64,000 nt of DNA from Aquamicrobium aerolatum DSM 21857. Lineage in GTDB: Bacteria > Pseudomonadota > Alphaproteobacteria > Rhizobiales > Rhizobiaceae. Location: NCBI RefSeq assembly GCF_900113935.1, contig NZ_FORF01000011.1, positions 62,001-126,000 of the forward strand, read 5' to 3'. Position numbers and translations under genes: made by a program. Under the pieces are notes generated by a model that saw only the letters and a list, made by a program, of their open reading frames with translations, was not told where the DNA came from and did not search any database. The first letter of the stretch is position 1, and each line of letters opens with the position of its first letter. Positions 27,368-38,073 of this stretch are shown here, in pieces.

Positions 27368-27443
27368 GGGGCCATAGCTCAGCTGGGAGAGCGCCTGCAT
27401 GGCATGCAGGAGGTCAGCGGTTCGATCCCGCTTGGCTCCACCA
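27368..27443 (+). tRNA. tRNA-Ala (anticodon GGC)
   Basis: 76 nt including encoded CCA. Acceptor GGGGCCA pairs with TGGCTCC, including the G3:U70 wobble that marks alanine tRNAs. Anticodon stem CCTGC/GCAGG with loop ATGGCAT gives anticodon GGC. T loop GGTTCGATCCC. It is an isolated tRNA gene. Confidence 0.97.
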
Positions 27444-27628
27444 AATTCTACCCTCCCTGTTACGACCCGATTTGATCCGCCAGAACCATGAATTGTGCCG
27501 TATGGCGCGCCTTTCCGCGCGGCGTGCAAGGCCTTCTGGCATAAGCCGACAAAATATCGATAAATTGCATGGCAGGCATGCAGGAATGTTGGTTGTCCGA
27601 ATCGGCCCGTCTGGGTAGGAAGCAGTCA

Positions 27629-27740
27629 CTGACGTTCTACCTCCTCCCAGAACGTCGGTATCGAATGCGGCGAACCTCCTCCCTTGCCGCATTGCAGATT
27701 AGACCCGCTGCACCTCCTCCCGCAGCGGGTCTTATCATTT
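27629..27740 (+). ncRNA. Small RNA with three anti-Shine-Dalgarno hairpins (alpha-r14/'cuckoo'-like)
   Basis: Three consecutive hairpins in the gap between tRNA-Ala and a FAH gene. Hairpin 1: GACGTTCT / AGAACGTC, loop ACCTCCTCCC (27631-27656). Hairpin 2: AATGCGGC / GCCGCATT, loop GAACCTCCTCCCTT (27664-27693). Hairpin 3: an 11-bp stem AGACCCGCTGC with loop ACCTCCTCCC (27701-27732), followed by TATCATTTCT as a likely terminator tail. All three loops display CCTCCTCCC, which contains the CCTCCT of the 16S rRNA 3' end. From memory this matches the rhizobial alpha-r14/NfeR1 or cuckoo sRNA type, trans-acting regulators that pair with ribosome binding sites. The 5' end and promoter were not located. 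Confidence 0.85.
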
Positions 27741-27805
27741 CTGCACCCTATAGCCGGCAGATGCGGCTTTCCTTACAAATTGCTGTACCGGTTTGCGATG
27801 AAGCT

Positions 27806-28492
27806 TCAGGCAATCGTCGTCGTCAATGCGCCGAGATTTTCGATCTCGACGACGCAGACATCGCCGCGCTCCAGCGCGCCGACCCCGGCAGGCGTGCCGG
27901 TATAGACGAGGTCGCCTGGCTGAAGGCGGATCGAGGCCGACAAGATCGCGATGATTTCCGGCACCGACCAGATCAATTCCGAAAGATCGCCGCTCTGGCG
28001 CAGGCTGCCATTGACCGAGAGGCGGATGAAGCCCTGTGAAGGATGGCCAATGGTTGCGACGGGGATGACCGGGCCGCAAATGGCGGAATTGTCAAAACCC
28101 TTGCCCCAATCCCATGGCCGCCCCGCCTTCTTGGCTTCGGCCTGGCGGTCGCGCCGTGTCAGATCGTTGCCAATGGCGTAGCCCCAGACATGGGCAAGCG
28201 CGTCGGCGGCATGGATATCAGCACCACCGCGCCCGATGGCAACGACCAGTTCTGCTTCATGATGAAGGTCATCCGTGTCCGGCGGGTAGGGGATCGTGGC
28301 GCCGTCGTCGACCAGCGCATCAGCCGGCTTGGTAAAGAAAAACGGCGGCTCGCGGTTCGGATCGCCGCCCATCTCATGTGCGTGGGCGGCATAGTTGCGC
28401 CCGACACAGAAGATGCGTCGCACCGGGAATCGGGATGTGGAGCCGGCTGTCGCGACGGATGGAACCGGAGGCGGGGCAAAAACGTAGTCCAT
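27806..28492 (-). CDS. FAH family protein, fumarylpyruvate hydrolase-like
   Basis: A complete 228-aa FAH-domain protein. IFCVGRNYAAHAHEMGG, DDLHHEAELVVAIGRGG (acidic metal ligands), and LQPGDLVYTGTPAGVGAL are diagnostic. It most resembles fumarylpyruvate hydrolase/acylpyruvate hydrolase members by length and the RNYAAHA motif, but there are no aromatic-catabolism neighbours to support a pathway. AGGAAA lies before the ATG at 28492; it diverges from gnd. Confidence 0.88.
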   Translation of the reverse strand: MDYVFAPPPVPSVATAGSTSRFPVRRIFCVGRNYAAHAHEMGGDPNREPPFFFTKPADALVDDGATIPYPPDTDDLHHEAELVVAIGRGGADIHAADALAHVWGYAIGNDLTRRDRQAEAKKAGRPWDWGKGFDNSAICGPVIPVATIGHPSQGFIRLSVNGSLRQSGDLSELIWSVPEIIAILSASIRLQPGDLVYTGTPAGVGALERGDVCVVEIENLGALTTTIA

Positions 28493-28686
28493 GAAACTTT
28501 TCCTGTAAGCCTGTCGATAGCCAATTGGACGCGTTTTCGCGGCGCGCGCAAGGGGGCCGCAGCCGGGCCGAAAATCCGGGGCAGCCCGGCTGCATGGCTG
28601 CCATGCGAGGGAGGTTGTTGACGCGGTCTTGTGCAGGAGAGCATCATTCAAGGCACCTGCCAGAGTTGCATGCGGAGGAACGATCC

Positions 28687-37899: not shown

Positions 37900-37929
37900 C
37901 GCCACTTTCACACACCAAATTCTGATGTA

Positions 37930-38073
37930 TCGGCAATTATAGCCGAGTCCGGTCCAAGGCTCGTCCCCCGCCTCACCGGACACAGCGGGAGCCTCATCCC
38001 CCTCTCCGGGCTCCCGCAATTGTTTGAGTAAAGGCCGCTGTGGTATCCCCCTCCGCCACAGCGGCTCTTTTTT
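37930..38073 (+). ncRNA. Small RNA with three C-rich-loop hairpins next to polA (alpha-r7-like)
   Basis: Divergent from polA. Hairpin A: GTCCGGT / ACCGGAC (37947-37981), 21-nt loop containing GTCCCCCGCCTC. Hairpin B: GCGGGAGCC / GGCTCCCGC (37985-38017), loop TCATCCCCCTCTCCG. Hairpin C: a 10-bp stem GCCGCTGTGG / CCACAGCGGC (38034-38065), loop TATCCCCCTCCG, followed by TCTTTTTT: a textbook intrinsic terminator. A possible -35 TTGAAA is at 37894-37899. All three loops share TCCCCC(G/T)C, complementary to G-rich ribosome binding sites. I recall the rhizobial alpha-r7 sRNA lying beside polA; that identity is from memory, not a search. Confidence 0.85.

Follow-up and report, generated by a model that had tools for sequence, protein, structure and literature searches.

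A "cuckoo" family of RNAs was reportedly described by Reinkensmeier and Giegerich in 2015. PMC3927594 describes RFMSmelA075 and RFMSmelA099 from S. meliloti and Rhizobiales as RNAs of three or four hairpins with variable stems and with CCUCCUCCC in the loops, and it reports that a genome has several copies of the ar14-type family and that the microsynteny of the family is fragmented. According to PMC10746234, LsrB activates NfeR1 of S. meliloti and binds its promoter at a site of the form TGCA-N6-GCAT, NtrC represses it, and the RNA silences ntrBC by means of its loops. These loops are redundant, and mutating all three of them abolishes ntrB repression in a reporter assay (same paper). NfeR1-type sRNA has salt and symbiosis phenotypes in S. 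meliloti according to PMC7143759, where Northern blots reliably show only one of the six copies, so that a given ar14 copy may be silent. From Rhodobacter sphaeroides, PMC3927594 reports homologous transcripts (RS0680a) that have two hairpins and anti-SD loops. The 3' UTR of a DUF1127 gene gives rise to the CcsR1-4 RNAs of R. sphaeroides, which need the small DUF1127 protein CcaF1 for maturation. RS0680a and CcsR are presumably the same RNAs.

The RNA analysed here lies in the window, by which we mean the whole 64 kb stretch of DNA that was searched. It is a new copy in a family of regulatory RNAs that is already well described. The initial annotation, which was made from the letters alone, nearly reproduced the published description of SmelA075 / alpha-r14 / NfeR1 (PMC3927594, PMC10746234, PMC7143759).

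Structure and family of the RNA

The locus contains the following elements:
27621..27737, + strand: ar14 (RF02344) sRNA, whole family match (cmscan)
27628..27659, + strand: hairpin 1, 11 bp, loop with CCUCCUCCC at 27640-27648 (fold, loop positions)
27664..27693, + strand: hairpin 2, 10 bp, loop with CCUCCUCCC at 27675-27683 (fold, loop positions)
27701..27732, + strand: hairpin 3, terminator-like, 11 bp, CCUCCUCCC in the loop at 27713-27721 (fold, sequence)

The Rfam model RF02344 (ar14) matched over its full length (model positions 1-123 of 123; cmscan) with 82.9 bits, where the gathering cut-off is 58.8, and an E value of 2e-13. It turned out that four Rfam matches in the window exceed their cut-offs, namely ar7, ar14 and two tRNAs. 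The covariance-model search, which had been proposed as a check, thus bears out the identity with alpha-r14/NfeR1 ("cuckoo") RNAs that had been suggested at first. The span had been given as 27629-27740; the RNA is indeed there, but the family match covers 27621-27737. Another known alphaproteobacterial sRNA, ar7 (RF02342), is found at 37928-38070 on the + strand with 106.7 bits (cut-off 60).

The minimum free energy (MFE) of 27621-27737 is -53.4 kcal/mol, while the mean of 200 shuffles is -26.73 (z -8.74), and 0 of the 200 shuffles reached the value of the RNA. In the predicted fold each of the three hairpins has a 10-nt loop in which the entire 9-mer is unpaired, and the three stems are mutually unlike, which agrees with the earlier picture of three hairpins with unrelated stems and one shared, exposed loop. 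Over the whole window, exact copies of CCTCCTCCC occur on the + strand at three sites (27640, 27675 and 27713) and nowhere on the - strand. For the third loop, CACCTCCT had been proposed; ACCTCCTCCC is exposed as claimed, but the first C of CACCTCCT (27711) takes part in a base pair of the predicted fold. Hairpin 3 had been called a perfect, terminator-like hairpin of 11 bp. It does have 11 bp, with 3 extra pairs beyond one mismatch in the predicted fold, and it resembles a terminator, but the U run on its 3' side is interrupted (UAUCAUUU, 27733-27740), so it is terminator-like and no textbook terminator. The pattern scanner, which takes loops of 3-8 nt only, reported no terminator.

Spread of the family and conservation of the loops

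To describe the spread of the family, we counted ar14 matches in related and control genomes. Among genomes sampled from the same bacterial family, with the genome of the window counted, 116 of 121 have an ar14 match at E 0.001 and 108 of 121 have one over the cut-off, while the same search gave matches in 0 of 14 control genomes. The single-genome search, run at a lax threshold (E 1), gave ar14 hits in 3 of 14 controls, none of which is over the cut-off. Among 20 relatives including the genome itself, 13 have a match at 1e-6: all 12 members of the bacterial family do, and so does 1 of the 8 others, with a score below the cut-off.

The genome of the window has 3 ar14 copies over the cut-off, at C18, C11 (the window copy) and C9; below the cut-off, there is a copy at C17 with 48.1 bits, and three weak candidates score 27, 25.2 and 17.5 bits. 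The C18 copy (L001, 96 bits) lies immediately 3' of a small DUF1127 (Pfam) gene, a location common to seven congener copies with similar flanks on both sides. This placement of L001 resembles that of the CcsR RNAs of Rhodobacter sphaeroides. The C17 copy (L004, 1501-1613), which lies about 90 nt upstream of tRNA-His, has zero exact loops: its middle loop is lost and the outer two read TCTCCTCCC, from which we conclude that ar14 copies do decay. For comparison, the congener copy L101 has three exact loops, and L100 has two plus a third loop that reads TCTCCTCCC.

To compare loops and stems, we examined 34 loci, 30 from the relatives search and the others (L004-L007) from the search of the own genome. 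In the relatives search, 34 of the 42 listed rows exceed the cut-off, and the examined set includes 27 of these 34. Of the examined loci, 27 of 34 are over the cut-off; three exact CCTCCTCCC loops occur in 24 of these 27, which is the loop figure free of selection, with the Rfam model itself rewarding the loops, and 3 of the 27 have two exact loops. None of the 7 loci below the cut-off has three. The identity and covariation analyses used the 24 of 34 loci that were chosen for three exact loops (23 distinct rows for covariation), so that loop constancy is built into this 24-row set.

In the MFE folds of these 24 three-loop copies, none of the 72 loops contains a paired base. The 12-nt flanks show a mean pairwise identity of 44/42% for hairpin 1, 36/37% for hairpin 2 and 64/74% for hairpin 3. 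The covariation analysis took its structure from the window copy, a choice that gives this pairing an advantage over the slid versions. In the three-loop alignment 76.8% of cells are paired versus 35.3-46.0% for slid pairings, the covariation score is 0.404 versus 0.169 in shuffles and at most 0.109 in slid pairings, and changes on both sides are seen in 29 of 35 pairs versus 20.9 in shuffles. One measure of the five, "further pair types", shows no excess (64 versus 61.7 in shuffles, with 151 of 500 shuffles as high). In the outer helices, the pairing of the window copy is kept in only 59% (hairpin 1) and 63% (hairpin 2) of the cells of this alignment. Generally, the stems in relatives vary and covary and the loops are mostly kept; the initial annotation had suggested such a comparison after seeing stem divergence with loop conservation among the three hairpins. 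A reading made without tools thus found a real, conserved regulatory RNA, and we regard its anatomy, its family membership and its loop/stem pattern as established.

We rejected a chance repeat and a plain terminator on the ar14 match, the fold z of -8.74 and the covariation. An ordinary intrinsic terminator, or a C-rich repeat that arose by accident and regulates nothing, would fit a GC-rich, terminator-like hairpin 3 with a tRNA gene on one side and a convergent gene on the other, but the full-length family match, the extreme z value and covariation around constant loops in relatives make such a reading extremely improbable.

Upstream box and possible promoter

Two elements were recognised upstream of the RNA:
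27566..27579, + strand: TGCA-N6-GCAT box, an exact match to the published LsrB-site form of the NfeR1 promoter
27593..27621, + strand: candidate weak -35/-10 pair, TTGTCC-N17-TAGGAA, found by eye; the start would then be near 27628

The box begins 55 nt ahead of the ar14 model start, and the window holds 4 TGCA-N6-GCAT sites in its 64 kb. Six of the 34 loci have the exact box within 200 nt upstream: in two of them, the window copy and L112, it stands at -60 to -50, and in the other four it occurs at different places in this stretch. A looser box, [T/C]GCA-N7-[C/T]ATG at 50-60 nt before the model start, is found in 11 of 12 stand-alone copies with the window copy included, a figure that is descriptive because the looser form was derived from those very sequences. 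It is found in 0 of 8 DUF1127-linked copies, and shuffles give 0.00075 per copy. The 12 stand-alone and 8 DUF1127 copies were grouped by hand and together make up 20 of the 34 loci. By analogy with NfeR1, LsrB may control the window copy via TGCA-N6-GCAT.

A consensus scan found no sigma-70 promoter upstream of the RNA. For the alphaproteobacterial form CTTAGAC-N17-CTATAT it gave no match either, and by eye there is just the weak pair listed above, whose -10-like TAGGAA is poor. Besides, the NtrC motif TGC-N11-GCA occurs at -96 and -55 of the window copy, which is weak evidence because the 64 kb hold 34 such matches.

Chromosomal position

The RNA is flanked by two genes:
27368..27443, + strand: tRNA-Ala (GGC), upstream neighbour outside the RNA (ARAGORN, Rfam tRNA)
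27806..28492, - strand: fumarylacetoacetate hydrolase (FAH)-family gene, convergent neighbour (ORF; PF01557 FAA_hydrolase, E 5.4e-60)

The gap between tRNA-Ala and an FAH gene, in which the RNA had been placed, is thus confirmed by ARAGORN for the tRNA-Ala(GGC) and by Pfam for the FAA_hydrolase gene. A FYDLN_acid gene (Pfam) adjoins tRNA-Ala in all 8 genomes of the genus that were compared, and 6 of these loci have aroA (named by reading) upstream. Beyond tRNA-Ala(GGC), the sequence differs between congeners (L137-L143 compared with window positions 27444-28500). In this comparison the 3' side of tRNA-Ala(GGC) looks like a variable site.

In about 0.9-1.3 kb behind tRNA-Ala in each of the 7 congener loci, 0 of 7 have CTCCTCC on the + strand and 0 of 7 have an FAH protein match; on the - strand, CTCCTCC occurs twice in L138 and once in L141, where an ar14 gene has three. 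Neither this tRNA-Ala nor the FAH gene was found near the other ar14 candidates (0 of 33 loci; about 1.5 kb per side, less at contig ends). When the gap DNA (27444-27740) was searched against the 7 congeners, the RNA part alone was matched, with 72-91% identity, plus one weak 33-base match. On these comparisons, the window copy stands at a place found in none of the 7 congeners examined, and it may therefore be recent or dispensable. The chromosomal position appears to be the sole unusual feature of this ar14 copy. The location beside tRNA-Ala(GGC) is, together with the box and the hint about ntrB, what little is new. A narrow literature search found nothing on a tRNA-Ala-linked anti-Shine-Dalgarno hairpin sRNA in alphaproteobacteria, and we do not claim that it is undescribed.

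The best 80 of 496 FAH relatives (from named genomes, near ones possibly absent; 11 of the 80 loci shorter than 6600 bases) have neither an ar14-like loop pair nor tRNA-Ala(GGC) nearby, and the same loop scan recovers ar14 loci in 27 of 27 cases, so the FAH neighbour is uninformative on the RNA. The best listed relatives of the FAH gene (27806-28492, - strand; near genomes possibly absent from the list) have about 63-73% identity and belong to Rhodobacteraceae, Nitratireductor and others, with some gammaproteobacterial MAGs. This gene may have come in by transfer, since it is absent from the stretches compared behind tRNA-Ala in the 7 congeners.

It is also conceivable, though rather unlikely, that the window holds a silent or decaying extra ar14 copy, produced by recent duplication or relocation, whose structure persists without useful expression. 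The position that none of the 7 congeners shares, the two other copies over the cut-off in the genome, L004 as an example of decay and the single reliably detected copy among six in S. meliloti (Northern blot; PMC7143759) all point that way, but all three loops and the stems are intact in the window RNA, and its LysR-type box stands in the register common to other stand-alone copies. Equally doubtful in our judgement is the idea that stand-alone ar14 is a mobile cassette of box, promoter, three-loop RNA and terminator that settles at variable sites, e.g. 3' of tRNA genes, and that would here have moved behind tRNA-Ala with targets other than ntrBC.

Putative mechanism and targets

We consider it very probable that the locus is a free-standing gene for a trans-acting sRNA of the ar14/NfeR1 type, about 110-117 nt long, whose loops block ribosome binding sites. 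Most likely, by analogy with its relatives, it would be a stress-responsive trans-acting sRNA that represses translation by means of redundant loops on ribosome binding sites. Transcription would start near 27628 at the gene's own promoter, probably with the aid of LsrB or another LysR-type activator at the TGCA-N6-GCAT box, and the transcript would end at hairpin 3. The three stems would serve as scaffolds, each presenting CCUCCUCCC as an open loop, and any loop could base-pair with mRNAs, several of them, at a ribosome binding site rich in GGAGG and so block their translation; there are three copies of the loop, which would therefore be redundant. The initial annotation had also proposed loops that sequester ribosome binding sites. 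This is established for the S. meliloti relative NfeR1 by reporters with mutated loops (PMC10746234), and for the window copy it would hold by analogy, the mechanism of repression being carried over from that relative.

A decoy or sponge for a partner other than mRNA, e.g. an RNA-binding protein that recognises the C-rich loops, would account for the whole 9-mer being constant in the 24 aligned copies (chosen for exact loops), where anti-SD mimicry needs 5-6 nt. CcsR maturation in R. sphaeroides depends on the DUF1127 protein CcaF1, and L001 lies directly behind a DUF1127 gene. We nevertheless hold a decoy to be very unlikely: NfeR1 loses repression of a target start region when the three loops are mutated (PMC10746234).

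The ntrC gene of the genome was found by its family model, and the likely ntrB is the histidine-kinase gene just 5' of it, with PAS, HisKA and HATPase_c domains. On its oriented locus (L144; one genome, first 468 nt scanned, inferred ATG at 356), there is no GGAGG near the likely ntrB start, from 355 nt before it to about 110 nt after it. Within the first 420 nt of L144, the most stable loop duplex has -12.6 to -13.8 kcal/mol and lies near position 88, far upstream of the inferred ATG. Because the likely ntrB start is without a nearby GGAGG, the S. meliloti ntrBC feedback may not apply here; the predicted sites do not support an ntrBC feedback loop in this genome and weigh more against it than in its favour.

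We also searched the genome for GGGAGGAGG-N2-11-ATG and found 5 sites, versus 1 for the reversed pattern. Three of the 5 GGGAGGAGG sites precede long ORFs (ABC_tran, p450 and AMP-binding in Pfam), and the other 2 of 5 precede frames of 12 and 43 codons. Candidate targets such as the ABC-transporter ATP-binding gene with GGGAGGAGG before its start are guesses and serve as leads only.

Comparison with known systems

The window copy is chiefly useful as an extra case in which to study how anti-Shine-Dalgarno sRNAs gain copies and change places in alphaproteobacteria, and it gives a hint that the ntrBC target known in S. meliloti is not universal. With RF02344 ar14 (alpha-r14; NfeR1/Smr14C2/SmelC397 of S. 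meliloti), it shares the length, the three hairpins and CCUCCUCCC in each loop; variable stems, several copies per genome and an LsrB-type box upstream are also common to both. It differs from NfeR1 in three respects. The window copy, as described from the window locus alone, stands behind tRNA-Ala(GGC) and before an FAH-family gene; compared with the published -72 to -60, its box is about 10 nt closer to the start inferred here; and the likely ntrB of this genome is without a clear pairing site. As regards CcsR1-4 of R. sphaeroides, L001 is alike in its DUF1127 linkage, whereas the window copy is without a DUF1127 gene directly ahead and probably has its own promoter. Beside RFMSmelA075 and RFMSmelA099, the window RNA is one further three-hairpin copy.
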